49,718 nt of DNA from Pseudomonadota bacterium (GTDB lineage Bacteria > Pseudomonadota > Gammaproteobacteria > Burkholderiales > Burkholderiaceae_C). Position numbers and translations under genes: made by a program. Positions 638-29,202 of the stretch are shown here, piece after piece (position 1 is the first letter of the stretch; each line of letters opens with the position of its first letter). The notes under the pieces are model-generated. The model made no database searches and was not told the DNA's origin. It saw only the letters and a list, made by a program, of their open reading frames with translations. The stretch is taken from assembly GCA_020161215.1 (NCBI GenBank), contig JAIUOM010000015.1, positions 1 through 49,718 on the forward strand, written 5' to 3'.

Positions 638-762
638 CCCGAGTGCGAGCGCCCCTGATCGGGCGCATCAGAAACCATGATTGGCGCCGCCGGGGTGCGG
701 CCGCTAGAGTGCGCCATCGGGAGGGTTCCCGGGCTCGGTTCACCTTGAAGGAGACTTATCGC

Positions 763-2082
763 ATGCGCCTCACCTCATTCGCACTCGCCCTGGGCCTCGT
801 GGGCGCCAGCCTGGCGGCGCAGGCCGGCACCGTGACCGTGCTGACCTCCTTTCCCAAGGAGCTGACCACGGCCTACCAAAAGGCGTTTGAAGCCGCCAAC
901 CCCGGCATCAAGCTGGAGATCCTGAACAAGAACACCGTCGCCTCCATCGCCTACGTGCGCGAGCTGCCGGCCGGCCAGCGCCCGGACGTGATGTGGGCCT
1001 CGGCCCCCGACGCCTTCGAGGTGCTGGCGCGCAACAAGCTGCTGGCACCCGCGCCCGACACGGTGAACCCGGCCGCGCCGGCCAAGATCGGCAACTACCC
1101 GCTGAACGACCCGCAAGGCCTGTACTACGGCCAGGCGCTGGCCGGCTACGGGATGATGTGGAACACCCGCTACCTGGCGGCGCACAAGCTCACGGCGCCC
1201 AAGGAGTGGCGCGATTTGACCAAGCCAGAGTACTTTGGCCACGTCGCCATTTCCTCGCCCTCGCGCTCGGGCACCACGCAGCTCACCGTTGAGACCATTT
1301 TGCAGGGCGAAGGCTGGGAAAAAGGCTGGACTCTGCTGCTGGAGATGATGGGCAACGTGGCCGCCGTCACCGACCGCAGCTTCGGTGTGCCCGACGGCGT
1401 GAACAACGGCCAGTACGGCATCGGCATCGTCATCGACTTCTTCGGCCTGGCCGGCAAGTACTCGGGCTTTCCGGTCGACTTTGTCTACCCCAGCATGACG
1501 GCGGTGGTGCCGGCCAACATCGGTTTGCTGGCCGGCGGCAAGAACGCCGAGGAGGCCAAGAAGTTCATGCGCTTCACCATGTCCAAGGAAGGCCAGCAAC
1601 TGCTGTTCGACCCCAAGATCAGCCGCCTGCCGATCCTGCCCTACAGCCAGCTCAAGGCGCCGGCCAACTACCCCGATCCCCAGGAGGTGGCCCAGCGCGC
1701 CAAGGTGCAGTTCGATTCCGACCTGGCCGAAGCCCGCTACCAGGTGGTCACCGGCCTGTTCGACCAGATGGTCACCTTCCGCCTGAAAGAGCTGCAGGGC
1801 AGCACCAAGGCGATCCAGGCGGCCGAGGCCGCCCTGAAGGCCAAGCCCAACCCGCGCGGGCGCGAGCTGGTGCAGCAGGCGCGCAGCCTGACCTACAGCC
1901 CGCTGGTGAGCGCGCAGAACGTCAAGGACGATCAGTTCCTGGAGCTGTTCCGCAAGAGCCGGCGCGATGTCGAGGTGTCCAAGCAGCTGTCGGGCATCGA
2001 GCAGCTGTGGGCCGACAAGGCGCGCCAGAACTACGCCCGCGCCACCCAACTGGCCACCGAGGCCCGTTCGCTCGCCAAATAA
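763..2082 (+). CDS. ABC transporter periplasmic binding protein, Fe(III)/AfuA-like family 1
   Basis: This 439-residue protein starts at the ATG preceded by AAGGAG at 748-753. The frame is open further upstream, but only this start gives a signal peptide (MRLTSFALALGLVGASLAAQA). The mature part begins GTVTVLTSFPKEL and contains PDVMWASAPDAFEVL and a type-2 periplasmic-binding-protein fold typical of iron(III), thiamine and phosphonate-type binding proteins (extracellular solute-binding family 1). It should capture the ligand in the periplasm for the permease and ATPase that follow. About 90 residues at the C-terminus form a Lys/Ala/Gln-rich, probably helical extension beyond the usual domain. 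The ligand is not identifiable: Fe(III), a phosphonate or another organic anion are all possible. Confidence 0.85.
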   Translation: MRLTSFALALGLVGASLAAQAGTVTVLTSFPKELTTAYQKAFEAANPGIKLEILNKNTVASIAYVRELPAGQRPDVMWASAPDAFEVLARNKLLAPAPDTVNPAAPAKIGNYPLNDPQGLYYGQALAGYGMMWNTRYLAAHKLTAPKEWRDLTKPEYFGHVAISSPSRSGTTQLTVETILQGEGWEKGWTLLLEMMGNVAAVTDRSFGVPDGVNNGQYGIGIVIDFFGLAGKYSGFPVDFVYPSMTAVVPANIGLLAGGKNAEEAKKFMRFTMSKEGQQLLFDPKISRLPILPYSQLKAPANYPDPQEVAQRAKVQFDSDLAEARYQVVTGLFDQMVTFRLKELQGSTKAIQAAEAALKAKPNPRGRELVQQARSLTYSPLVSAQNVKDDQFLELFRKSRRDVEVSKQLSGIEQLWADKARQNYARATQLATEARSLAK

Positions 2083-2117
2083 GCCCTTGCGGCGGCGGGG
2101 CAGGGCGCTGAGGGCTT
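2081..2117 (+). other. Intercistronic stem-loop between binding protein and permease
   Basis: AAGCCCT (2081-2087) pairs with AGGGCTT (2111-2117) around a GC-rich loop, directly at the stop codon of the binding-protein gene. There is no T-run, so it is not a classic terminator. In many ABC operons such a structure stabilises the binding-protein mRNA, giving it in excess over the permease; that role is inferred here. Confidence 0.45.
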
Positions 2118-2157
2118 GACGCCGCCAGCGCGCCGCCTTGGCGCCCGGACGCACCCC

Positions 2158-3897
2158 ATGAGCACTTCTTCCGCTTCAGGCGCCGCCGCGGCGGCCCTTC
2201 CCGCGGCACGGCCGCGCACCTCGCGCGAGCTCGGCCTGTGGCTGGCCTACGGGCTGATCGCCGTCTTCTTGATCGCCTTTCTGATCGTGCCCATCGGGCT
2301 GGTCATCTACACCGCCTTTGTCGACGAGGCCGGGGGGCTGACCCTGGGCCATTTCGGCAACTTCTTCGAGCAGACGATCTTCCGCGAATCCTTCGTCAAC
2401 AGCCTGATCGTGTCCTTGGCCAGCGTGGCGGTGGCGACGGTGATCGCCGTGCCGCTGGCCTACCTGACGGTGCGTTTCGAGTTTCGCGGCGCGCTGCTGA
2501 TCCAGACCCTGGGCGTGCTGCCGCTCATCATGCCGCCCTTCGTGGGCGCGGTGGCCATGCAGCTGATCTTCGGGCGCAGCGGCTCGGTGAACCTGCTGCT
2601 GAACGAGCATTTCGGCTTCACCATCCCGATCATGGACGGCTTGGTCGGCGTCACCTTTGTCGAGAGCATCCACTACTTTCCCTTCATCCTGCTGAACCTG
2701 GTGGCGGCCATGCGCAACATCGACGGCGCCATGGAAGAGTCGGCCCTGAACCTGGGCGCGCGCGGCTGGCGGCTGTTTCGCCGGGTGATTTTTCCGCTCG
2801 CCATGCCGGGCTACCTGGCCGGCGCCACGCTGGTGTTCGTGAAGGTGTTCGACGATCTGGGCACGCCGCTGGTGATGGGCGTGACCAACATGCTGGCCCC
2901 GCAGGCCTACCTGCGCATCACCTCGGTCGGGCTGGACGACCCGCAGGGCTACGTCATCAGCGTGATCATGATCGCCTTCTCGATCCTGGCGCTGTGGCTG
3001 GCCGCGCTGGTGATGAAGGGCAAGGACTACACCACCTTGCAAAAAGGCGGCAGCGCGCTGCAAAAGCGGCGCCTGAGCGGCTGGGAGTCGCTGCTGGCCT
3101 ACGGCTGGATTGGCGTGGTGCTGCTCATCACGCTGGCGCCGCACATCGGCATCCTGCTGATGTCCGTGGCCAAGGTGTGGAGCTTCTCGGTGTTGCCCGA
3201 CGCCTACACGCTGGAGCACTACGCCACGGTGTTCACCGATTCGCCGCAGATGATCGAAAACACGCTGCTGTACTGCGGCCTGGCCGCCGGGCTGGACATC
3301 GTCATCGGCACCGCCATCGCCTACATCATCCTGCGCACCCGGCTGCCGGGGCGGCAAATGCTGGACTACCTGGCCTCGGCGGCGCTGGCGATTCCGGGCC
3401 TGGTGCTGGCCATTGGCTACCTGCGGCTGTTTCGCGGTGTCAATCTGCCGTTTTCCGACACGCCCATGGTCAACACCTGGGTGCTGATCATGCTGGCCTA
3501 CGCCGTGCGGCGCCTGCCGTACGCGCTGCGCTCGTGCATGGCGGCGCTGCAGCAGGTGCATGTGTCGCTGGAAGAGGTGGCGCAAAGCCTGGGCGCGGGG
3601 CGCCTGTCCACCATCCGGCGGGTGGTGGTGCCGCTGATGGCCGGTGGCATGCTGGCCGGCTTTGTCACCAGCTTCATCACCGCGGCGGTGGAGCTGTCGG
3701 CCACCATCTTGCTGACCTCGGCGCAAAGCCAGGCGCCGATGAGCTACGGCATCTACCTGTACATGCAAAGCATCTCCGGCCGCGGCCCGGGCGCCGCGCT
3801 GGGCGTGCTGGCGGTGGTGGTGGTGGCCATTGGCACCTACCTGTCTCACCGCTTCGTCGAGCGCACCCGAGCCACCGTGGCATCCTCGCAACCGTAA
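2158..3897 (+). CDS. ABC transporter permease, fused two-domain (FbpB/SfuB type)
   Basis: A 579-residue inner-membrane protein with two homologous BPD_transp_1 halves, each of about six hydrophobic segments. Each half carries an EAA loop that docks the ATPase: the first around MEESALNLGARGWRLFRRV, the second around SLEEVAQSLGAGRLSTIRRV. Fusing both permease subunits into one chain is typical of Fe(III), thiamine and some phosphonate importers. The ATG at 2158 is chosen over the upstream in-frame TTG at 2116 because the first membrane segment then follows a short polar N-terminus. It lies between the binding protein and the ATPase, all in the same direction. Confidence 0.92.
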   Translation: MSTSSASGAAAAALPAARPRTSRELGLWLAYGLIAVFLIAFLIVPIGLVIYTAFVDEAGGLTLGHFGNFFEQTIFRESFVNSLIVSLASVAVATVIAVPLAYLTVRFEFRGALLIQTLGVLPLIMPPFVGAVAMQLIFGRSGSVNLLLNEHFGFTIPIMDGLVGVTFVESIHYFPFILLNLVAAMRNIDGAMEESALNLGARGWRLFRRVIFPLAMPGYLAGATLVFVKVFDDLGTPLVMGVTNMLAPQAYLRITSVGLDDPQGYVISVIMIAFSILALWLAALVMKGKDYTTLQKGGSALQKRRLSGWESLLAYGWIGVVLLITLAPHIGILLMSVAKVWSFSVLPDAYTLEHYATVFTDSPQMIENTLLYCGLAAGLDIVIGTAIAYIILRTRLPGRQMLDYLASAALAIPGLVLAIGYLRLFRGVNLPFSDTPMVNTWVLIMLAYAVRRLPYALRSCMAALQQVHVSLEEVAQSLGAGRLSTIRRVVVPLMAGGMLAGFVTSFITAAVELSATILLTSAQSQAPMSYGIYLYMQSISGRGPGAALGVLAVVVVAIGTYLSHRFVERTRATVASSQP

Positions 3898-3909
3898 CCA
3901 GGCACGCGC

Positions 3910-5004
3910 ATGCAAACCCTCCACAAAGTTTCACTCGAAGCGCGCCACATCAGCCTCGCCTACGGCGCCACCCCGGTGCTGCGCGACGTCACCCTGAAGA
4001 TCGAGCCGGGCGAGTTCTTTGCCCTGCTGGGGCCGTCCGGCTCCGGCAAATCGACGTTGCTGCGCCTGATTGCCGGCTTCAACCAACACCAAAGCGGCGA
4101 GCTGCTGGTGGATGGCAGGGACATCACCGGCGTGGCGCCGCACGCGCGCAACATCGGCATGGTGTTTCAGAACTACGCGCTGTGGCCGCACATGACGGTA
4201 TGGGACAACGTGGCCTTTGGCCTGGTCGAGCGGCGCGAGCCGCGCGAGCAGATCGGCCGCAAGGTGGGCGAGGTGCTGGAGCTGGTGGGCCTGGCCCAGT
4301 ACGCCCAGCGCCGGCCGGGGCAACTCTCGGGCGGGCAGCAGCAGCGCGTGGCGCTGGCGCGCACCGTGGTGATCGAGCCCAAGCTGCTGCTGCTGGACGA
4401 ACCGCTGTCCAACCTCGACAAGCAGTTGCGCGTGCAGATGCGCGAAGAGCTGAAGAACCTGCAGCGCAAGCTGGGCCTGACCACCATCTTCGTCACGCAC
4501 GACCAGGAAGAGGCCATGACCACCGCCGACCGCATGGCCGTGCTCGACAAGGGCGTGCTGCAGCAGGTGGGCTCGGCGGCGGGGCTGTACGACTTCCCGG
4601 TCAACCGTTTCGTGGCCGGCTTCGTGGGCACCACCAACCTGCTGGAAGGCCTGGTCACCGCCGTCAACGCCGAAACCGTGCGGTTCCACGCCCAGGGCGT
4701 GGGGGAGCTGACCTTGCCCAGCCCGCCGCACCCGCCGCGCGCGGGCAGCGCGGCGCTGGCTTTTCGGCCGCACCAGGTGGACATCCGGGTGCGCGACGAG
4801 CTGGCCGAGCCTTCGCGGGTGTGGGTCGAGGGGGTGGTCGAAAGCGCCGAGTTTCTGGGCGAGTTCTCGCGCTACCGGGTGCGCGTGGGCGAGGCGGCCC
4901 TGGTCAGCGACCAGCCGCACTACGCCGGCCTGTCGATGTTTCCGCCCGGCGCCCAGGTGCGCCTGGGCATCGAGCCCACGCAAGTGCGCTTTCTGGCCGA
5001 CTAG
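3910..5004 (+). CDS. ABC transporter ATP-binding protein
   Basis: A 364-residue ATPase that drives the importer. Walker A is GPSGSGKST (41-49), the Q-loop is VFQNYALWPH (about 86-94), the signature is LSGGQQQR (139-146), Walker B is LLLLDEP (159-165) and the switch histidine is H197 in VTHDQEEA. Residues from about 245 onward form a TOBE-like domain, as in the CUT/Fe/polyamine group. The gene starts 12 bp after the permease stop. Its stop codon TAG straddles the left boundary of the palindromic element at 5004: TA is the flanking dinucleotide and G is the first base of the element. Removing the element and one TA restores TAA, so the insertion preserved the protein end. Confidence 0.95.
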   Translation: MQTLHKVSLEARHISLAYGATPVLRDVTLKIEPGEFFALLGPSGSGKSTLLRLIAGFNQHQSGELLVDGRDITGVAPHARNIGMVFQNYALWPHMTVWDNVAFGLVERREPREQIGRKVGEVLELVGLAQYAQRRPGQLSGGQQQRVALARTVVIEPKLLLLDEPLSNLDKQLRVQMREELKNLQRKLGLTTIFVTHDQEEAMTTADRMAVLDKGVLQQVGSAAGLYDFPVNRFVAGFVGTTNLLEGLVTAVNAETVRFHAQGVGELTLPSPPHPPRAGSAALAFRPHQVDIRVRDELAEPSRVWVEGVVESAEFLGEFSRYRVRVGEAALVSDQPHYAGLSMFPPGAQVRLGIEPTQVRFLAD

Positions 5005-11654: not shown

Positions 11655-13769
11655 ATGCAGTCCGGCAAGTCGACCATCACCCAGCTGTTCAGTGCTCCGA
11701 TTCAGTACGTCATTCCGGTCTTTCAGCGCGGTTACGTGTGGACGTTGAACAAGCAGGTGGCTCCCCTGTGGGCCGACATCGAGGACCGTGCCGACAAGTT
11801 GCGGCAGTACGAGGCGCAAGCCCGTCAGGTCGGCCAACAGCCGCTCAAGGCGGTGCAAAAGCATTTTCTTGGTTCGCTGGTGCTCACTCCCGTGCCCGGC
11901 GCTTTCGGTCGCGTTCCCGCCTTTGAGGTGATCGATGGTCAGCAGCGCACCACCACGCTGCTTCTGCTTCTGCTGGCGTTCTGGCGTGCGGCACAGCAGG
12001 TGAAGGACTCACCCGTGGCGGCCATGCTCGATGGCTTGCTTCGCAACCAGGGCGTGTTTTCGTTGGACAGCGATGGCTTCAAGGTTTGGCCTACCCAGGC
12101 CGGGCGCGCCGAGATGCGTGCCCTGCTGGAAGCGTCCGATGCGGATGCCGTGCAGGCGGCCTACCCAGTGCGAGAGGGCAAGACACGGACGGATCGGCCA
12201 TTGATGGTCAAGAGCTTCTTGTACCTGCATCACGCCTGCCTGGCCTACCTGCGTGGCGTGACGCTTGGGGACGCCTTGGCGCCCGAGGACGAGGCTGGTG
12301 CATCGGAAGCACTGATTCATGCCATTGACAACGACAACCATGTGACGCCGATTCAAGCAGAGCTTGCCTTGCAGGCGGAGCGGGCCCAGACGCTTTTCAT
12401 GGCCATGCAGTCGCTGGTCCAACTCGTGACCCTGACGCTGGAAAGCGAGGACGATCCGCAGGTTATCTTCGAAACGCTGAACGCACGGGGCGAGCCCCTT
12501 CTGGCGTCGGATCTGGTGCGCAACTTTCTGTTCCTCGAGGCTGCACGCCGTGGCCTGGATGTGCCGGAGCTCTACGCGGCGCATTGGAAGAGCTTCGACG
12601 AGCAACTGGACGCACGTGGCAACGCCACGGCCAACCGTTACTGGCGCGAGGAAGAGAGGCAGGGACGCCTGAAGCACCCGCGTATTGATCTGTTCTTCTT
12701 TCACTACACCGTGCTGCGCCGAGGCCAGGAGACCAAGGTCTCGCACGTGTTCCAGAACTTCAAGGATTGGTGGCGCACGGAACCAGAGCGCGACATCGGG
12801 CACGAGTTGCAGCGCATGGTGCGTGCCAGCGAGCACTTCCGCGATCTGGTTTCGCCCGAGGGCAGCGACGATGTGGCCGAGTTCGGTCGGTTGATGCGGG
12901 CATTGGACGTGTTTTCCTTTGCTCCCGCTTATCTGGCCTTGCGGGAGCGGCTGGCGACGGACAGTCCGCAATTGCGCCAGGCGCTGGGCGACCTGGCGTC
13001 GTACCTGACGCGGCGGGCCGTTTGTGGCCTCACCACCAAAGCCTACAACCGCTTGGCACTGCGCCTGATGACCGAGATCCAGGGCGCGGGGGATCCCGCC
13101 GCCGCCGTGCGGGCCTACCTGCGCGGCCTGGAGGGCGATACCCAGCTGTGGCCGGACGACCGAGTTTTTGGCGCCAAGTGGTTGGATCGGCCGGTGTACC
13201 TGGAACTCAAGCCGGCGCGCGTCACGGCCTTGTTGCGCCTGCTGGAGCGCGCTTCGCACACTTCCTACCAGGCGAATATCAAGGTGCCCTTGGCTTCCAC
13301 GCTGACTGTGGAGCACGTGCTGCCCCAAAGTTGGGCCACCACCGGCCACTATCCACTGCCCACGCATGCACTCGCTCACCCAGGGGCCGACAATGCAGAG
13401 CTTCGCGCCCTGACCGCCGAGGAAAAGCAGCAGGCGCACGACAGGCGCGAGCGGCTGTTGCACACCTTTGGCAATCTGACTTTGCTGACCGGGCCCATGA
13501 ACTCCGCCCTCAGCAATGGCCCGTTTGCCGACAGCATCGATGCCGACGGTAAGCAGGTGCCGGGAAAACGGCGAAACTTGCCGGATGGCCTGCTGACGTT
13601 GAATACCTGGTTCCAACGTCCCGAGATCACGAATTGGGACGACACGAACATCGCCGAGCGGGGCGCGGCATTGCTCGCCAAAGCCATCGTCTGCTGGCCG
13701 TATCCACCGGCGGCGGGCAATGTTCCTGGTGCCTCTGATACCGTCAGAGTAGCGGCATCGGCCACCTGA
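11655..13769 (+). CDS. GmrSD-type DUF262-DUF1524 protein (putative type IV restriction/defence)
   Basis: A 704-residue single-chain protein. The N-terminal DUF262 domain carries FEVIDGQQRTTTL (DGQQR at 94-98), the nucleotide-binding/ParB-like motif of GmrS-type proteins, preceded by the conserved start region PVFQRGYVW. The C-terminal DUF1524 domain has an HNH-like nuclease site: EHVLPQSW (from residue 553) and, further on, HTFGNLTLLTGPMNSALSN. In characterised GmrSD enzymes these halves cut sugar-modified phage DNA using NTP hydrolysis; related proteins serve in other anti-phage systems. A GAGAAG ribosome site precedes the ATG. It sits alone between housekeeping genes ybaK and plsY, with somewhat lower GC by eye, suggesting acquisition. 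Its target is not known. Confidence 0.85.
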   Translation: MQSGKSTITQLFSAPIQYVIPVFQRGYVWTLNKQVAPLWADIEDRADKLRQYEAQARQVGQQPLKAVQKHFLGSLVLTPVPGAFGRVPAFEVIDGQQRTTTLLLLLLAFWRAAQQVKDSPVAAMLDGLLRNQGVFSLDSDGFKVWPTQAGRAEMRALLEASDADAVQAAYPVREGKTRTDRPLMVKSFLYLHHACLAYLRGVTLGDALAPEDEAGASEALIHAIDNDNHVTPIQAELALQAERAQTLFMAMQSLVQLVTLTLESEDDPQVIFETLNARGEPLLASDLVRNFLFLEAARRGLDVPELYAAHWKSFDEQLDARGNATANRYWREEERQGRLKHPRIDLFFFHYTVLRRGQETKVSHVFQNFKDWWRTEPERDIGHELQRMVRASEHFRDLVSPEGSDDVAEFGRLMRALDVFSFAPAYLALRERLATDSPQLRQALGDLASYLTRRAVCGLTTKAYNRLALRLMTEIQGAGDPAAAVRAYLRGLEGDTQLWPDDRVFGAKWLDRPVYLELKPARVTALLRLLERASHTSYQANIKVPLASTLTVEHVLPQSWATTGHYPLPTHALAHPGADNAELRALTAEEKQQAHDRRERLLHTFGNLTLLTGPMNSALSNGPFADSIDADGKQVPGKRRNLPDGLLTLNTWFQRPEITNWDDTNIAERGAALLAKAIVCWPYPPAAGNVPGASDTVRVAASAT

Positions 13770-19926: not shown

Positions 19927-20919
19927 TCAATCGGCCGTCAGCCCGATGCGCTTGGCGATCTCGGCAAAGCGGTCGATGTCGGCATCCACGATCTTCTTGA
20001 ACGCGGCGGGGCCGTCGTGGGCCGGGGTGTAGCCCAGCTCGTTCAGGGTTTTCTGCACGTCCTCGCGGGCCATGATCTTGGCGATGCCCTCGTACTGGCG
20101 GTTTTGCACTTCCACCGGCGTGCCCTTGGGCGCCAGCAGGCCGTGCCATTGGCTCAGCTCGTAGCCGGGCAGGCCTTGCTCGGCCACGGTGGGCACGTCG
20201 GGCAGGTTGCGGTAGCGCTCCTTGGAGGTGATGGCCAGCGCGCGCAGCTTGCCGCTCTTGATCAGCGGCATGGCGCTGGAGACGGTGACAAAGCCGACCG
20301 GGGTCTGGCCGCCGGCGACGTCGGTCAGGGCCGGCCCGCAACCCTTGTAGGGCACGTGCACCATGTTGACCTTGGCCTGCAGGTTGATCTGCGCGCCGGC
20401 CAGGTGCTGCGGCGTGCCGCTGCCGCAGGAGCCGAAGGAAACCGGGTTTTTATCGGGCTTGGCGGCGGCCATCAGATCGCCGAAGCTCTTGTACGGCGAA
20501 TTGGCCGGCACGATGACCACGGTGGCGATGTAGGCGATGTTGATGATCGGCACGAAGTCGGTCTTGGGGTCGAACGGCATTGACTTGAACACGCCGGGGT
20601 TGACCGCGAACGAGCTGTTGACCATCAGCAGGGTGGTGCCGTCGGCCGGCCGGCCGGCGGCGTAGCGCGCGCCCACGTTGCCGCTGGCGCCGGGGCGGTT
20701 CTCGACCACCGAGGTGCGGCCCATCACCTCTTGCGTGTGCGCGCCGATCAGGCGCGCCAGCATGTCGGTGCCGCCACCGGGCGGAAAGGTGACGGTGATT
20801 TCCAGCGGCCGGGTCGGGGCGCCGCCGGTCTGGGCCAGCGCCGGCGCGGTCGCGCCAGCGCCAAGCAGGGCCACGAGCGACAGGGCGCGACAGAATTGTT
20901 TGCGGGTGATGTGCGACAT
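19927..20919 (-). CDS. Bug/TctC-type tripartite tricarboxylate transporter binding protein
   Basis: A 330-residue periplasmic protein with a signal peptide ending ...APALAQ (about 1-30). Family motifs: ITVTFPPGGGTDMLARLI, VVENRPGASGNVGA, the MPFDPKTDFVPI segment and VPYKGCGPALTDV. Bug proteins bind carboxylates or similar small molecules for TctAB permeases; most are orphan, as here. It starts 17 bp after the stop of the PhnN-phosphorylase fusion and is the last gene of the nadC operon, so a link to pyridine carboxylate or nucleotide precursors is possible but only inferred. Confidence 0.93.
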   Translation of the reverse strand: MSHITRKQFCRALSLVALLGAGATAPALAQTGGAPTRPLEITVTFPPGGGTDMLARLIGAHTQEVMGRTSVVENRPGASGNVGARYAAGRPADGTTLLMVNSSFAVNPGVFKSMPFDPKTDFVPIINIAYIATVVIVPANSPYKSFGDLMAAAKPDKNPVSFGSCGSGTPQHLAGAQINLQAKVNMVHVPYKGCGPALTDVAGGQTPVGFVTVSSAMPLIKSGKLRALAITSKERYRNLPDVPTVAEQGLPGYELSQWHGLLAPKGTPVEVQNRQYEGIAKIMAREDVQKTLNELGYTPAHDGPAAFKKIVDADIDRFAEIAKRIGLTAD

Positions 20920-20936: not shown

Positions 20937-22979
20937 TTAGGCGAGAAGGTGAAGGCCCGGATCGGATTGCGCCAGGGTGGCGGCCGACTCGAGATCGGTG
21001 GCGGAGCTTGAGTGGATAACGTAGAGCTCCTGCCCCGCGTGGACCGGCGTGCCGGCTCGGTACACCAGATCGATACCGGCGCTCTTGTCGTTGGGGGCGC
21101 CGGCGCGTCGCGCGATCTCGGTGATGCGCGCGATGTGCAGCTCGGCCCCGGGTGCGGCGCGCTGGGCCCGCACGGTGTGGGTCAGGGCGCCGGGCAGCAC
21201 TGGCGGCTGGCGCCGGCCCTGGGCGTCGACGATTTCGTCGAGCTTGCGGCGCGCCGCGCCGTTGCGCAGCAACTCCCAGGCGCGCGCCAGGCCCTGCTCG
21301 GCGTTGCCGATGGCCGGGTCCCAGGCCAGGATGCGGCTGGCGAAGAACAGCGCCTTGTCGCGCAGATCGGGCGGGGCATCGGTGGCGTTGTCGAGCACGC
21401 GCAGCACGTCGCGCGCCTCCAGCGCCGGGCCGATGCCGCGGCCAATCGGCGCGGCGCCGTCCGTGGCGTGGGCTTCGATGGTCAGCCCGACCTGGCGGCC
21501 CACCGTTTCGAACAGGCGCGCCAGCTCCAGCCCTTCGTCGCGGCTCTTGAGCTTGGCCTGCGGGCCGTAGGGCAGATCGACAATCACATGGGTGGAGCCG
21601 GCCGAGAGCTTCTTGGACAGGATCGAGGCCACCGACCAGCGCCCCGAGTCGATGCCCAGTGGCCCGGTGATGGTGTTCATCACGTCGTCCAGCACGGTGT
21701 GGTTCAGGCGCCCGTTCCAGGCCACGCAGCCGCGCGTGCGCTCGACCACGCCGCGCAGCTGCTCGGCCGTCAGATCGACCTTGGCCAGCACCTCCATGGC
21801 ATCGGCGGTGCCGGCCGCCGAGGTGATGGCGCGCGAGGAAGTCTTGGGAATCGCCAGCCCATGCGCCGCCACGATCGGAATCACGATTAGGGTGATGCGG
21901 CTGCCGGGAATGCCGCCCATGGAATGCTTGTCCACCACGATGGGCTCGGGCCAGGCCACGCGGCGCATGAAGCCGGCGCGCACGCGCGCCAGCGCCGCCA
22001 CCTCGTCGTCGCTCAGGTGGTGCGAGGCGGCCACCAGGAAGGCCGCCACCTCGCCCGGCGGGTAGCGGCCCTGCATGATGTCGGTCAGCAGCACGCGGTA
22101 CTGCGCCTCGTCCAGCTCGGTGCCGCCCAGCTTGGCGCGCAGCAGGGCGCGGCTTTCCGGCGCCGGGGTGCGGTGGATGCCGACCGAGGCGCCCTCGGGC
22201 AGGCCCAGGTCCTCGAAGGCCTGGCGCGACAGGCCGATCTGGTCGGCCGCCAGGGCCGGCTGGGTGCCGGCCACATGCACGTTGGCACGGATGCTGCGCC
22301 CCTCGCCGACGATGTCGATGCGGTCCGGGCCCAGGTAGTCGTGCGCGCCGATCACGCTGTCGGCGGGCAGGTAGGCGATGTGCTCGCGCCAGGTGTCGAT
22401 CGGGTAGGGCACCACGCGCAGCCGCCGCGCCACGCCTTCCAGCGCGGCGATCAGGCGTTCCACGCCCTGCTCGACGCTGCCGTTGTTGGCCACGTGCAGG
22501 GTCTCGACGCCGGGCACCTCGGGCACCTCGACGGCGCGCGCCAGGCGGGCGGCGATCTCGGCTTCGCTCTCGCGGCCGCGCTCGCCCAGGCGGGCTTCGA
22601 CATGACCGCGGTCGGCGCTGATGCTGAGCATCACCAGGCGCTCGACCCGGGTGGCCAGGCGCCTGATGGTGGCGCGCGAGCCGTTGGCGACGACGTGGCG
22701 GCCGGCGCGCAAGGCGTCGGACAGCTCGGCCGGCAGGCCGTAGCGCAGCCCGTGCGCGGACCAGGTCAGCAGGAAGCCGCCGGCCTGCTCGCGGGCCTCG
22801 AAAGCCGCTTCGGTGGCGGCCAGATGCTGCTCGCCGCCGGCGTCGGCCGGCCGTGTGATGACGCGCTGCGCGAACACGTAGCGCGCGTCGGCGGCGAGCC
22901 GCGCGCGCGCGCCGTCGATCAGCGTGTCCTTGCCGACGCCACTGGGGCCGACGATGAGAAAAAAGACCCCTGGGCGCAT
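20937..22979 (-). CDS. Fusion: ribose 1,5-bisphosphate kinase (PhnN) + AMP-phosphorylase/type-2 thymidine phosphorylase
   Basis: A 680-residue two-domain protein. Residues 1-185 are PhnN-like (guanylate-kinase fold): Walker A GPSGVGKD (11-18), RVITRPADAGGEQH and the LERGRESEAEIAARL-type lid region. PhnN converts ribose 1,5-bisphosphate and ATP to PRPP. Residues 190-680 match the archaeal AMP phosphorylase/type-2 thymidine phosphorylase family: an N-terminal beta domain (about 188-270), then DKHSMGGIPGSR (350-361) and SSRAITSAAGTAD (381-393), which differ from the classical DeoA sequence at the nucleoside/phosphate site. AMP phosphorylases release ribose 1,5-bisphosphate from NMPs, the substrate of PhnN, so the two halves could run consecutive steps. 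It is 10 bp after nadC. No C-P lyase genes are nearby. The activity of the second half (NMP or thymidine) must be tested. Confidence 0.9.
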   Translation of the reverse strand: MRPGVFFLIVGPSGVGKDTLIDGARARLAADARYVFAQRVITRPADAGGEQHLAATEAAFEAREQAGGFLLTWSAHGLRYGLPAELSDALRAGRHVVANGSRATIRRLATRVERLVMLSISADRGHVEARLGERGRESEAEIAARLARAVEVPEVPGVETLHVANNGSVEQGVERLIAALEGVARRLRVVPYPIDTWREHIAYLPADSVIGAHDYLGPDRIDIVGEGRSIRANVHVAGTQPALAADQIGLSRQAFEDLGLPEGASVGIHRTPAPESRALLRAKLGGTELDEAQYRVLLTDIMQGRYPPGEVAAFLVAASHHLSDDEVAALARVRAGFMRRVAWPEPIVVDKHSMGGIPGSRITLIVIPIVAAHGLAIPKTSSRAITSAAGTADAMEVLAKVDLTAEQLRGVVERTRGCVAWNGRLNHTVLDDVMNTITGPLGIDSGRWSVASILSKKLSAGSTHVIVDLPYGPQAKLKSRDEGLELARLFETVGRQVGLTIEAHATDGAAPIGRGIGPALEARDVLRVLDNATDAPPDLRDKALFFASRILAWDPAIGNAEQGLARAWELLRNGAARRKLDEIVDAQGRRQPPVLPGALTHTVRAQRAAPGAELHIARITEIARRAGAPNDKSAGIDLVYRAGTPVHAGQELYVIHSSSATDLESAATLAQSDPGLHLLA

Positions 22980-22989
22980 GGGGGGCCGA

Positions 22990-23823
22990 TCAGGACTCGT
23001 CCAGGCCGATGTCCACCGCCGGCGCCGACTGCTGCGGGCGGCTGGTGGAGATGTAGTCGACGCCGGTTTCGGCGATCGGGCGGATGGTTTCCATGCGGAT
23101 GCCGCCGGAAGCCTCCAGCTTGGCGCGGCCGGCCACCAGCTTGACCGCCTCGGCCATGTCCGGCACCGACATGTTGTCGAGCATGATCACGTCCACGTTG
23201 GCGGCCACGGCCTCGCGCACCTGGTCCAGGCGGTCGCATTCGACTTCCAGCTTGGTCAGCACCGGCAGCAGCCGGCGCGCGCGCTCGACGGCCTTGGCGA
23301 TGCCGCCGCAGACGGCGATGTGGTTGTCCTTGATCATCACGCCGCCGTCCAGGCCCAGGCGGTGGTTCAGCGCGCCGCCGCAGGAAGAGGCGTGTTTTTC
23401 GAGCATGCGCAGACCGGGCGTGGTCTTGCGGGTGTCGATCAGGCGCGCGTGGGTGCCGCGGATGGCCTCCACGTAGCGCGCCGTTTCGGTGGCGATGCCG
23501 CTCATGCGCTGGATGATGTTCAGCGCCGTGCGCTCGGTGGTCAGGATGCTGCGCGCGGCGCCGCGCACGTCCAGCAGCCTGGCGCCTTTTTCCACCCGGG
23601 CGCCGTCGCGCACCAGCGCCGACACCTCAAGGCTCGGGTCGTAGCGCTTGAACACCGCGGCGGCCACGTCGATGCCGGCGATGACGATGGATTCACGCGC
23701 GTTCATGTGGAAGGCGCCGACTTCGTCCGGCTCGATCATGACCTGGGCGGTCAGGTCGCAGGCGCCGATGTCCTCGGCAAGCCAGGTGTCGATCAGGCGT
23801 TGAATGACAAAAGGGTCGTACAT
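22990..23823 (-). CDS. nadC: Nicotinate-nucleotide pyrophosphorylase (carboxylating; quinolinate phosphoribosyltransferase)
   Basis: A 277-residue enzyme that joins quinolinate and PRPP to give nicotinate mononucleotide, CO2 and PPi in de novo NAD synthesis. Motifs: LAEDIGACDLTAQ, TERTALNIIQRMSGIAT, DTRKTTPGLRMLEKHAS, HRLGLDGGVMIKDNH, VECDRLDQVREA, DVIMLDNM and LEASGGI..ETIRPIAETGVDYIS. All are of the normal type II phosphoribosyltransferase form and length. It heads an operon with the PRPP-forming fusion protein and a Bug protein. The 308-bp upstream stretch holds strong inverted repeats that may be part of its leader. Confidence 0.96.
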   Translation of the reverse strand: MYDPFVIQRLIDTWLAEDIGACDLTAQVMIEPDEVGAFHMNARESIVIAGIDVAAAVFKRYDPSLEVSALVRDGARVEKGARLLDVRGAARSILTTERTALNIIQRMSGIATETARYVEAIRGTHARLIDTRKTTPGLRMLEKHASSCGGALNHRLGLDGGVMIKDNHIAVCGGIAKAVERARRLLPVLTKLEVECDRLDQVREAVAANVDVIMLDNMSVPDMAEAVKLVAGRAKLEASGGIRMETIRPIAETGVDYISTSRPQQSAPAVDIGLDES

Positions 23824-24131
23824 GAGAAGGCCTCGTTGCTGGTTTTTGGGATGCTGAGAATGTAAAGAGCGTTCTTAACGAATCTCAAAATCCAGCATTG
23901 GCGCGCCTTGGCGGCTTGTGCCGGAGCATTTGATTCATGGAACGCTCACTACATGAAATTGGGCTTGATTCTAGGGGGCAGGTGCCCGATCCCTGCACTG
24001 GGGTGAACCCTAGGGAGCTGTCTCGCAGACAGCTCCGTGGCGTATTTTTGTCCGTGCGCTTTGCCCTGGGCGCCGATCCGGCAGTGTTCTGCCCGGCCCT
24101 GAACGCAGGCGGGTGGCCCATGCCTGGCGGT
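23824..24131 (-). promoter_or_regulatory. nadC upstream region with nested inverted repeats
   Basis: This 308-bp stretch has no supported gene. It holds a perfect 10-bp stem with a 3-nt loop (GGAGCTGTCT and AGACAGCTCC at 24014-24036). Beside it, CTAGGG (23971-23976) pairs with the CCCTAG at 24008-24013. Read toward nadC these lie about 150-210 nt before the start codon, as expected for a structured leader or operator. A 17-codon frame with ATG (23885-23938, minus) could be a leader peptide, but there is no codon bias to support attenuation. No known riboswitch class is recognised. Confidence 0.4.
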
Positions 24132-26672: not shown

Positions 26673-27545
26673 ATGCCCATCGACAGCGCCACCATCAAGG
26701 CGGTTACCGCTGCGCTCTATGAGCGCTCTCTGAAAGCCATTCCGGCCGACACTCGAGCAGTGCTGGCACGGGCTGGCGAGCGCGAGACCGATCCCACCGC
26801 GCGCCGCACCTTCCGCCTGATGCTCGACAGCGCCGACACGGCTGCGCGCGAGGGGCAACTGGTGTGCAGCGACATCGGATTGCCGACCTACAGCGTCAAG
26901 GTGGGCACCCGAGTGCGTTTCAATGGGCCGGTGCGTCAGGCCATCCAGGACGGCTTCGCCGAACTGGCGGCGACCATGAACCCGCCGATTCTGAAAATGG
27001 TCACCCACCCGCTCACCCATGAGCGCAGCCACGCCGGCAAGGACGTACCGATCGTCAGCTTTGACCTGATAGACGACGTCGACTACGTGGACATCGTCTG
27101 CGCGCCCAAGGCCATGGGCACGGGACGCTGGGAGGCCATGGAGGCCTTCGTGTACCCCACCGTCGAGGACGTGGAGCGCTACGTGCTCGACGTGGTGCTG
27201 CGCGCTGGCTCGCAACCCTGTCTGCCGATCGTGGTGGGCGTGGGCATCGGCGGCACTTTTGACCATGCCGCGCGCCTGGCCAAGGAAGCGGTGTTGCGCC
27301 CACATGGCGAGCCGCAGCCCGATGCGCTGCTGGCGGGCATGGAGCAGCGCTTGCTGGACGCCATCAACCAGATGGGGTTTGGTGCCATGGGCACCGGCGG
27401 AGATTGCAGCGCCATGGCCGTGAACGTGGCGTACTCGGCCAGCCACGGCTTCGTGCCAGTGGCGGTGTGCTTCAACTGCTGGATCAACCGACGCACGGCC
27501 GCGCGCATCCACGGCGATGGGCGTGTCGAGACGCTGTACGGGTGA
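26673..27545 (+). CDS. Class I fumarase/tartrate dehydratase-like alpha subunit (divergent)
   Basis: A 290-residue protein matching the alpha (4Fe-4S) subunit of two-component class I hydro-lyases such as L-tartrate dehydratase. Candidate cluster ligands are C65 (LVCSDIG), C183 (PCLPIVVGVGIGG) and C266 or C269 (VCFNCW). GTFDHAARLAKEAVL and MGFGAMGTGGDCSAMAV are family segments. The usual PKGGGSEN-type active-site loop is replaced by APKAMGTGRWEAMEAF, so the substrate is probably not fumarate or tartrate. The ATG lies 73 bp downstream of a strong palindrome. First gene of the catabolic cluster. Confidence 0.88.
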   Translation: MPIDSATIKAVTAALYERSLKAIPADTRAVLARAGERETDPTARRTFRLMLDSADTAAREGQLVCSDIGLPTYSVKVGTRVRFNGPVRQAIQDGFAELAATMNPPILKMVTHPLTHERSHAGKDVPIVSFDLIDDVDYVDIVCAPKAMGTGRWEAMEAFVYPTVEDVERYVLDVVLRAGSQPCLPIVVGVGIGGTFDHAARLAKEAVLRPHGEPQPDALLAGMEQRLLDAINQMGFGAMGTGGDCSAMAVNVAYSASHGFVPVAVCFNCWINRRTAARIHGDGRVETLYG

Positions 27546-27555
27546 GGGCACCGGA

Positions 27556-28176
27556 ATGAGCCGTTTGCACGAACTGACACTGCCCGTGGTGCCCAGCCAG
27601 ATCCGCGAACTGCGCGTGGGCGACATGGTCAGCCTGACGGGCGCGGTCACCGTCAGCATTGGCATTGCCACGCACCAGCGCATGGCAGAGGCCGTACGTG
27701 GCGGCATTCCGCTGCCAGTGGACCTGCGGGGTGGGGCATTTTTGCACCTGAGCACTTACGTGCGGGAGGTGGGCGACGTGCGCGAGCCGCTCTACCTCAA
27801 CCCGACCACCAGCACCCGCTACAGCGCCTGGATGCCCGACATCGTACGCGGGCTGGGACCACGTTTCGTGGGCGGCAAGGGCGGTCTGGACGAGGCCAGC
27901 GCCACGGCCCTGCGCGCATGCGGCTGCGTCTACCTGTCCTTTCTTGGCGGCGGCAGTCCGCTGCTGTCACGCGCCTTGCGTGCGGTGCGCAGCTCGCACT
28001 GGAACGAATACATCTCGCAGTTCCGGCTGCTGACCCTGGACGTACAGGCGCTGGGGCCAGCCACGGTGGCCATCGACGTGCACGGCGGCAACGCCTACGA
28101 CAGCTTGCGCGCGCGGGCCCAGGCCCGCATGCCCGGCATTCTCGAAGGCCTGCGCGGCGCACGCGGCGCTGGGTAG
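27556..28176 (+). CDS. Class I fumarase/tartrate dehydratase-like beta subunit (divergent)
   Basis: A 206-residue partner of the alpha subunit, 10 bp downstream, with the C-terminal fumarase domain. LRVGDMVSLTGAVTVSIGIATHQRM stands where tartrate dehydratase/fumarase has ...TGRDAAHKR, and NPTTSTRYSAWMPDIVRGLGPRFVGGKGG where they have GPTTS.RM...G..GKG. The overall frame and the GGKG motif are kept, but the Arg-Asp of the first site is lost. Together the pair should form an Fe-S hydro-lyase with a changed substrate pocket. The ATG at 27556 follows a GAGGGCACCGGA stretch. Confidence 0.87.
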   Translation: MSRLHELTLPVVPSQIRELRVGDMVSLTGAVTVSIGIATHQRMAEAVRGGIPLPVDLRGGAFLHLSTYVREVGDVREPLYLNPTTSTRYSAWMPDIVRGLGPRFVGGKGGLDEASATALRACGCVYLSFLGGGSPLLSRALRAVRSSHWNEYISQFRLLTLDVQALGPATVAIDVHGGNAYDSLRARAQARMPGILEGLRGARGAG

Positions 28177-28215
28177 GCGCCGCTTCCTCTCACTTTTGCC
28201 ACAGGACACATCGCC

Positions 28216-29202
28216 ATGCAACGCAGACACCTCAACACCTGGCTCGCCGCCGCCCTGGCCGCCGCCGGGCTCTCCATGACCGTGCCGGCACGGGCGCAGG
28301 GCGGTAACTGGCCGACCAAGCCGGTGCGCCTGGTGGTGCCGTTCCCGGCCGGTGGCAGCACCGACATGGTGGCCCGCTACATCGCTCAGGGCCTCGGCGA
28401 GAAGTTCGGCCAGCAGTTCATCGTCGACAACCGCACCGGCGCGGGCGGCAACATCGGCACCGACCAGGTCGCCAAGGCGGCACCGGATGGCTACACCATC
28501 GGCCTGTCCACATCCGGCCCGTTGGTGAACAATAAATTCTTGTACAAGAGCCTGCCCTTCGATCCCGAGAAAGACCTGACCCCCATCGCCCTGGTGTGCG
28601 AAATTCCCCTGGTGATCGCCAGCAACCCCAAGGTGCCGGCCAAGGGGCTGAAGGAGTTCCTGGCCCTGGCCAAGGCGCAGCCCGCCCAGTACACGGTGGG
28701 CCAGCCCGGCAACGGCACCATCGGTCACCTGGCGATCGAGCAGTTGTCCATGGTTTCGGGTGTTCCCCTCACGACCGTAGCCTACCGGGGCGACACCCCG
28801 GCCATGACGGACCTGTTGTCGGGCAGCATCCAGGCCTTGTCGGCGCCGATCACCGCTTTCATACCCAACCTCAGCGCCGGCCGGTTGCGTGGCCTGGCCG
28901 TGACTTCGGCGACGCGCTTTCCGGGCTTGCGCGACATCCCCACCGCCACCGAGCAGGGCGTGGACATGGTGGCCACGGTGTGGTTTGCCGTGGTCGGCCC
29001 GGCCGGCCTGCCGCAAGAGGTGGTGACGGCGCTGAACACGGCCATCAACGACATCGTGGGCTCCACCTACGGCCGCGCCAAGCTGCAGACCCTGGGCGCG
29101 GTGGTGCACACCGGCTCGCCAGCCCAACTGCGCAAGGCCATGGACGTGGATGCCAGGAAATGGCAGAAGGTGATTTCCACGGCCAATATCACCCTCAACT
29201 GA
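28216..29202 (+). CDS. Bug/TctC-type binding protein
   Basis: A 328-residue periplasmic protein with signal peptide (cleavage after ...VPARAQ, about 28). Family motifs: VRLVVPFPAGGSTDMVARYIA, VDNRTGAGGNIGTDQVAKAAPDGYT, LPFDPEKDLTPI and VAYRGDTPAMTDLLSG. It should bind the carboxylate substrate of the surrounding cluster and hand it to a TctAB permease; no tctA or tctB is in the window. It differs clearly from the other Bug protein at 19927. AGGA precedes the ATG. Confidence 0.94.
   Translation: MQRRHLNTWLAAALAAAGLSMTVPARAQGGNWPTKPVRLVVPFPAGGSTDMVARYIAQGLGEKFGQQFIVDNRTGAGGNIGTDQVAKAAPDGYTIGLSTSGPLVNNKFLYKSLPFDPEKDLTPIALVCEIPLVIASNPKVPAKGLKEFLALAKAQPAQYTVGQPGNGTIGHLAIEQLSMVSGVPLTTVAYRGDTPAMTDLLSGSIQALSAPITAFIPNLSAGRLRGLAVTSATRFPGLRDIPTATEQGVDMVATVWFAVVGPAGLPQEVVTALNTAINDIVGSTYGRAKLQTLGAVVHTGSPAQLRKAMDVDARKWQKVISTANITLN

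Follow-up and report, generated by a model that had tools for sequence, protein, structure and literature searches.

What use would a bacterium have for a single polypeptide in which PhnN, a kinase that makes 5-phosphoribosyl 1-pyrophosphate (PRPP), is joined to an enzyme that splits nucleotides with phosphate? The question is raised by a gene in a 49,718-nucleotide stretch of DNA from a Pseudomonadota bacterium (assembly GCA_020161215.1, contig JAIUOM010000015.1), the whole of which is called the window here. An earlier note on this DNA had read the gene as a PhnN-phosphorylase fusion that recycles nucleoside monophosphates straight to PRPP. This interpretation is partly supported by our analysis: the fusion is real, and its route is probably not one of general nucleoside monophosphate salvage. 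On balance we think that the fusion forms, with nadC and in some loci tctC, a quinolinate-to-nicotinate module that works with a recycled phosphoribosyl carrier. The features on which the argument leans are the following.

20937..22979, minus strand: PhnN - type-2 phosphorylase fusion of 680 aa, an uninterrupted open reading frame with an ATG start
22437..22970, minus strand: PhnN (ribose 1,5-bisphosphokinase) half, above the TIGR02322 cut-off
22926..22949, minus strand: Walker A motif GPSGVGKD (residues 11-18), which aligns with GPSGSGKD of Escherichia coli
20958..22421, minus strand: type-2 nucleotide phosphorylase half, matched by NF003338 and nearest to PDB 4ga5/4ga4
21801..21839, minus strand: SSRAITSAAGTAD motif (residues 381-393), the same letters as in the AMP phosphorylase of T. 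kodakarensis (TkAMPpase)
21633..21677, minus strand: switched base-pocket residues N435, T438 and S449, aligned with Tyr199, Arg202 and Ile214 of human thymidine phosphorylase (TP)
22990..23823, minus strand: nadC (quinolinate phosphoribosyltransferase), a member of a special clade, with which the presumed operon begins (TIGR00078; PDB 1x1o and others)
19927..20919, minus strand: gene for a periplasmic receptor of the TctC/Bug27 type, with which the presumed operon ends (PF03401; best PDB match Bug27, 2qpq)

The fusion is a true coding frame that contains a PhnN domain and a complete type-2 phosphorylase, and both motifs are present as the earlier note had quoted them. In the NCBIfam comparison, residues 4-181 scored 182.9 bits with TIGR02322 (PhnN; cut-off 156), residues 187-674 scored 596.3 bits with NF003338 (type-2 thymidine phosphorylase; cut-off 434) and residues 188-675 scored 456.3 bits with TIGR02645 (cut-off 434.6). 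Of the 184 residues aligned with E. coli PhnN, 67 are identical, and the blocks in common are Walker A, ITR, E.H, GL.YG and GRE; ribose 1,5-bisphosphate kinase activity is predicted for this half from the profile score and the kept motifs. Codon-position G+C is alike in the two halves (0.79/0.52/0.92 and 0.74/0.50/0.92), and there is thus no sign of a frame break. The same fusion had been proposed for a search in other genomes, and we found both halves in one frame at seven further loci, 44-66% identical to the window fusion, so that an assembly accident can be set aside.

At least eight fusion loci, that of the window included, were available, seven of them betaproteobacterial and one alphaproteobacterial. 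Two came from 60 relatives, namely genome G004 (locus L034) and G011 (L036, Ottowia thiooxydans), and one, L035 of genome G060, from a contig search that revealed at least nine loci, at least three of them fusions. Another was found in G074 among 399 genomes of the family, 132 of which gave a match at 1e-40, with two candidates per genome scored. The remaining three lie on plasmids of Variovorax sp. SRS16, Paraburkholderia sp. 22B1P and Pacificitalea manganoxidans; four of the 326 matching plasmid records were covered over at least 80%, and the fourth, from Sulfitobacter dubius, carries the annotation of a standalone enzyme. The Paraburkholderia fusion is about 100 residues shorter between the halves. 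Genome G075 carries a PhnN-like stretch only (49-51% identical), and there was no nadC or phosphorylase in the 12.6 kb viewed around it. The genes of L127 and L128 were read by tblastn and lists of open reading frames.

The constant partner of the fusion is nadC, which directly precedes it, on the same strand, at all eight loci, at a distance of -4 to 41 bp according to the start chosen near the PhnN domain. In the window, nadC ends 10 bp before the fusion and the Bug27-type receptor gene begins 17 bp after it, and neither neighbour entered the earlier note's account of the fusion. In the control set of standalone type-2 phosphorylase loci, viewed with flanks of about 1.5 kb, nadC was adjacent in 0 of 31 and prs in 30 of 31. 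With the prs-like gene that adjoins them, these standalone bacterial enzymes (L006-L009, L099-L125) are a second case of nucleotide phosphorolysis paired with the chemistry of PRPP.

The NadC proteins of the fusion loci are themselves distinct. The window NadC, encoded by the sole nadC found in its own genome (G000), scored 322.9 bits with the TIGR00078 equivalog model (cut-off 198.4). The NadCs of the other seven fusion loci are 59-81% identical to it, while 28 other NadC rows, taken from the same genus, family and order and confined to matches with an assigned locus, are 32-48% identical. In a tree of 34 rows, which leaves out L071 and L059 as well as the partial duplicate L098 that was left out of both our trees, the eight fusion-locus NadCs fell on one side of a branch with support of 100/100. 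Moreover, pairwise identities of nadC and of the fusion run in parallel (r = 0.90 over 28 pairs, which are not independent). From the clade and these identities, nadC and the fusion seem to move as a pair among beta- and alphaproteobacteria.

Taken together, these genes would permit a closed cycle. A Bug27-type receptor, or a TAXI-TRAP system in two other loci, would help quinolinate to enter; NadC would convert quinolinate and PRPP into nicotinate mononucleotide (NaMN), CO2 and pyrophosphate, as is established for its family; the phosphorylase half would split NaMN with phosphate into nicotinate and ribose 1,5-bisphosphate; and the PhnN half would use ATP to turn ribose 1,5-bisphosphate into PRPP and ADP, the established PhnN reaction. 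A reaction like the third is established for AMP, CMP and UMP (the adenosine, cytidine and uridine monophosphates) in the archaeal AMP phosphorylase. The net conversion would be quinolinate + phosphate + ATP to nicotinate + CO2 + ADP + pyrophosphate, with PRPP in a catalytic role, and the nicotinate would feed the cell's nicotinate catabolism, the known pathways of which begin at nicotinate. The loop closes exactly and requires PRPP in catalytic amounts only, and it would account for the joining of a phosphorylase to a PRPP-forming kinase behind nadC in nicotinate-catabolising genomes. By our reasoning, N-ribosylation would yield a pyridinium that permits decarboxylation at C2, and phosphorolysis in place of hydrolysis would spare one ATP equivalent in the remaking of PRPP. 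Channelling within the fusion is possible. We would give an even chance to the further proposition that this is a previously undescribed catabolic cycle, in which the phosphoribosyl group is a catalytic, removable handle that NadC adds, NaMN phosphorolysis removes and the same polypeptide recharges.

Nicotinate-catabolism genes were found in all five fusion genomes that were searched whole, and they belong to two unrelated kinds of pathway whose common point is nicotinate. The reductive kind is contiguous with the module in G004, where the order in L034 is 6-hydroxynicotinate reductase (minus strand) and then, all on the plus strand, a ferredoxin-NADP reductase-like gene, a TetR gene, enamidase, nadC, the fusion and tctC; the name of the first was taken from annotated plasmid records, and the best PDB match of the L034 enamidase is 2vun (1.4e-105). 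In G011, the enamidase gene adjoins nadC, and a dehydrogenase-reductase-TetR stretch reaches the end of another contig. The G060 genome has the reductase in two pieces and part of the enamidase on contig C411, and near its nadC a TetR protein 61% identical to the cluster regulator. In the window's own genome, the stretch from the reductase through the ferredoxin-NADP reductase and TetR genes to enamidase is on contig C157 and a nicotinate-dehydrogenase-like protein is encoded on C64, and since these are other contigs, linkage to the window cannot be shown. In the same genome, a tryptophan 2,3-dioxygenase and a kynureninase C-terminal domain (L084:7688-8999) share a contig with the 6-hydroxynicotinate reductase/enamidase cluster.

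The oxidative kind was found in G074, in which no 6-hydroxynicotinate reductase was found and the module adjoins a whole, contiguous set homologous to the nic genes. The names below rest on best PDB matches; 3ot4, titled a putative isochorismatase, we take to be NicF, and two further proteins of the set are presumably NicA- and NicB-like, the latter with cytochrome c domains and no molybdopterin domain at 1e-4.

NicC: 5eow, 4.2e-161
NicE: 4fq7, 2.8e-104
NicD: 4l0c, 2.9e-93
NicX: 7cn3, 2.4e-119
NicF: 3ot4, 3e-103

Of 29 genomes of the genus, all three with the fusion have an enamidase of at least 80% identity, and of the other 26 two do (Fisher p = 0.003, a rough guide as the genomes are related). 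Three genomes (G017, G025 and G033) have the enamidase and neither nadC nor the fusion, as would be expected if the module is an add-on.

Where the quinolinate would come from bears on the best surviving alternative, which we consider unlikely: that imported quinolinate is made into NaMN by NadC for nicotinamide adenine dinucleotide (NAD) synthesis, and that the fusion only tops up PRPP from cellular nucleotides. We found no nadA in any of the four fusion genomes tested (G000, G004, which is 78% complete, G011 and G060), although the same search gave a match in 12 of 14 controls; NadA, which would be expected as a partner if NadC ended de novo NAD synthesis, is thus missing from all four, which speaks for salvage. 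A 3-hydroxyanthranilate dioxygenase (HAO) gave no match in G000, G060 and G096, a match below the cut-off in G074, and matches above it in G004 and G011; the HAO model matched in 1 of 14 controls, none of them above the cut-off, yet it detected these two. Neither of the two quinolinate routes tested was found in the window's own genome, which points to uptake. Salvage has also been argued for the bug27-nadC-phnN neighbourhood by Sorci et al., with reference to quinolinate salvage by the NadC of Bordetella (PMC11452294). However, nicotinate phosphoribosyltransferase (pncB) was found in four of the six genomes searched and in three of the five that carry the fusion; G004 and G060 gave no match, and in the own genome it lies in two pieces on separate contigs. 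In addition, the salvage scenario leaves unexplained both the adjacency of the module to two different nicotinate-degradation pathways and the dedicated NadC clade, and the cell already has the housekeeping prs to provide PRPP.

The receptor gene is in keeping with quinolinate entry. The best of 11 PDB matches of the window TctC is Bug27 (2qpq, 64% identical), and all eight of the Bug27 pocket positions compared (F16, G21, T22, S74, C136, Q142, C165 and T183, the first being our match for Phe12 of the published numbering) are identical in it, and the contact position Asn228 is not; the mis-framed row L088 was left out of this comparison. Bug27 and Bug69 bind quinolinate with a dissociation constant of about 0.1 uM (PMC11452294). 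The window TctC is a putative quinolinate receptor. The transport genes beside the module vary: TctC proteins 53-77% identical to that of the window occur in L034, L036 and L137, a TAXI-TRAP system in L035 and L139, and an SsuA-like ATP-binding cassette (ABC) set in the Paraburkholderia locus, and no transport genes were identified beside the module of G074.

The second alternative, general recycling of AMP, CMP and UMP through ribose 1,5-bisphosphate to PRPP, was the role favoured by the earlier note, and we judge it improbable. It has in its favour the fold family, the motifs shared with TkAMPpase and the prs company of the standalone enzymes, and a phosphorylase acting at the nucleotide level does fit the hand-over of ribose 1,5-bisphosphate for PRPP. 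It is the substrates AMP, CMP and UMP, and with them the general role, that our analysis did not support. The fusion scored 390.1 bits with the AMP_phos equivalog model TIGR03327, well under its cut-off of 535; its partner is nadC in every locus; at some loci the module has nicotinate-catabolism genes as neighbours; and the base pocket has changed.

The pocket comparison covered nine phosphorylases of the fusion clade (the eight fusions and a standalone one from G096), 22 standalone enzymes and TkAMPpase, and was mapped onto human TP by sequence alignment alone (chain index + 6 = human number, set by motifs), with active-site positions as in PMC2719695. At the Tyr199 position, the fusion clade has N in all nine rows, and the 22 standalone enzymes and TkAMPpase have I. 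The Arg202 position holds T in seven, N in one and V in one of the fusion-clade rows versus E in all 22 standalone enzymes and TkAMPpase, and the Ile214 position holds S in eight and D in one versus M in 20 and L in two standalone enzymes and M in TkAMPpase. Thus the N435/T438/S449 of the window stands where a TkAMPpase-like pocket has I/E/M. Ser217 and Lys221 are kept in all aligned rows, and N422 and H427 are also specific to the clade (9/9 against 0/22). In a tree with several long branches, the fusion-clade phosphorylases formed one clade with support of 100/99. A base that bears a carboxylate, such as nicotinate, would fit a pocket that has lost the acidic residue, and with the gene context this suggests that NaMN is the substrate. 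The G096 phosphorylase (L126:9205-10854), which is 72% identical to that of the window, has no PhnN half and an altered N-terminus, is followed by TctC and stands at the end of a nicotinate cluster; it is perhaps a remnant of the module.

That the phosphorylase half acts on nucleosides such as thymidine or uridine, with the PhnN half serving something else, is very improbable: NF003338 does carry the name thymidine phosphorylase, but the scores lie far under the DeoA and PyNP equivalog cut-offs (TIGR02643, 104 against 570.7; NF004490, 142.6 against 269; NF004747, 105 against 559), the position of human TP Arg202 is T, and the SSRAITS motif is that of TkAMPpase. The textbook role of PhnN in phosphonate use by carbon-phosphorus (C-P) lyase can be dismissed for practical purposes despite the PhnN equivalog score, for no C-P lyase (phn) family was found in the 29 of 35 window genes scanned with Pfam, in agreement with the earlier note, and the annotation flanking L137 and L139 names none, the rest of the genome having been searched only for phnN.

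Several observations weigh against the quinolinate-to-nicotinate module. The HAO genes mean that G004 and G011 could make quinolinate from tryptophan for NAD. The quinolinate-contacting Asn228 of Bug27 (published numbering) is Ser in the window TctC and Asp in L034. The case for NaMN as substrate is built on context and pocket changes and not on structure, the AlphaFold2 model of the fusion from four sequences having a mean predicted local distance difference test score of 48.4 and a predicted template modelling score of 0.30, and we drew no inference from it. A NadC tree of 36 rows, in which the two long rows were kept, had no single clade of fusion NadCs, because the very long row L071, which is below the nadC cut-off, attached inside them. 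The nicotinate genes of the own genome lie away from the window's contig, and none of the five G074 nic proteins listed above, NicF included, exceeded any NCBIfam cut-off. No nicotinate genes were seen within 10 kb of the module on the Variovorax and Pacificitalea plasmids, no gene with a nicotinate name in the roughly 112 kb viewed of the 175-kb Pacificitalea plasmid, and no 6-hydroxynicotinate reductase in any of the three plasmid records, which cover the plasmids and not the chromosomes. The neighbours of the Paraburkholderia locus resemble genes for malonyl-CoA synthase, enoyl-CoA hydratase and amidase, for which we saw no link to nicotinate, and a NicC homolog is found about 1.5 Mb from it on the same replicon. 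Finally, the G096 phosphorylase sits in a nicotinate cluster with neither PhnN nor the special nadC.

The module resembles known systems in its parts and differs from each of them in the combination. The PhnN half is like E. coli PhnN in profile score, identity and Walker A, whereas it is fused to a phosphorylase behind nadC and the E. coli gene is in the phn operon. The other half is like TkAMPpase (PDB 4ga4-4ga6) and the bacterial type-2 'thymidine phosphorylase' (PRK04350/TIGR02645) over the whole domain, in SSRAITSAAGTAD (the T. kodakarensis form) and in SKK; it differs in the pocket, where I/E/M(L) has become N/T/S in most or all fusion rows, in forming its own clade and in its gene company, prs being the partner at 30 of 31 standalone loci. 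The module directly adjoins genes of the reductive pathway (6-hydroxynicotinate reductase, enamidase) in L034 and of the oxidative one (NicA-F, NicX) in G074, and the difference here seems to be an added entry step for quinolinate. The nearest description is of the nadQ-nadC-bug69 and nadC-phnN-bug27 neighbourhoods, bug27 adjoining nadC and phnN in Variovorax and Jezberella, which were linked to NAD metabolism (Sorci et al. 2024, PMC11452294). They share nadC, a Bug27-type receptor and, in Variovorax, an adjacent gene annotated phnN, and the accessible portion of that paper makes no mention of a phosphorylase half, of a step that splits NaMN or of nicotinate catabolism. The Variovorax 'phnN' that we viewed is a fusion of 717 aa annotated only by that name, which hides the phosphorylase half. 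A literature search, the coverage of which excluded most subscription papers, found no paper on the PhnN-phosphorylase fusion or on the loop, and nothing that joins PhnN with thymidine phosphorylase or NaMN phosphorolysis with ribose 1,5-bisphosphate or PRPP.

If the quinolinate-to-nicotinate cycle is true, the module would serve as a modular adapter, with which organisms that degrade nicotinate by either of the known pathways could grow on quinolinate, a neuroactive metabolite that would then have a nucleotide-cycling route. NaMN phosphorylase would be a new enzyme activity, the special NadC kept by bacteria without NadA would be explained, and the fusion, for which the records viewed name only PhnN, would have a function that extends PhnN biology past phosphonates. 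Bacterial quinolinate decarboxylation for growth thus becomes a question that is testable with two or three purified proteins.

Among the neighbours of the module, an FRG-domain protein (PF08867) was found in four of the eight fusion loci, in three of which it directly adjoins nadC or the fusion, and a fifth lies near the G096 phosphorylase.

L035:6182-6979, FRG-domain protein
L168:1337-2173, FRG-domain protein
L137:7484-8293, FRG-domain protein
L138:11870-12712, FRG-domain protein
L126, about 11957-12745, FRG-domain protein near the G096 phosphorylase

The first four are 57-61% identical to one another and the fifth 59-80% to those four; the four that were scanned match the phage-defence candidate PDC-S15. 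There was no match to the FRG protein in the window, L034, L036 or L139, and a search for viral relatives found none. The gene company of this protein suggests a part in pyridine-nucleotide handling. On the Pacificitalea plasmid, L178:32546-38097 holds a cluster of genes for orotate phosphoribosyltransferase, a Zn-dependent hydrolase, parts of dihydroorotate dehydrogenase and a TRAP transporter, possibly another phosphoribosyl-based catabolic or salvage set.

One further feature lies upstream of the presumed operon in the window.

23859..23888, minus strand: weak candidate for a promoter-like site upstream of nadC (1 site against a mean of 0.1, standard deviation 0.5, in shuffles)

Outside the module, the scanned genes among the 35 called in the window are ordinary in appearance. 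At 643-5004 they include an ABC importer, which Pfam places in a broad type without indicating a substrate. The stretch 26673-29202 holds alpha and beta genes like those of fumarase or tartrate dehydratase and, after them, a second TctC, which differs from the first and is 35% identical to Bug27.

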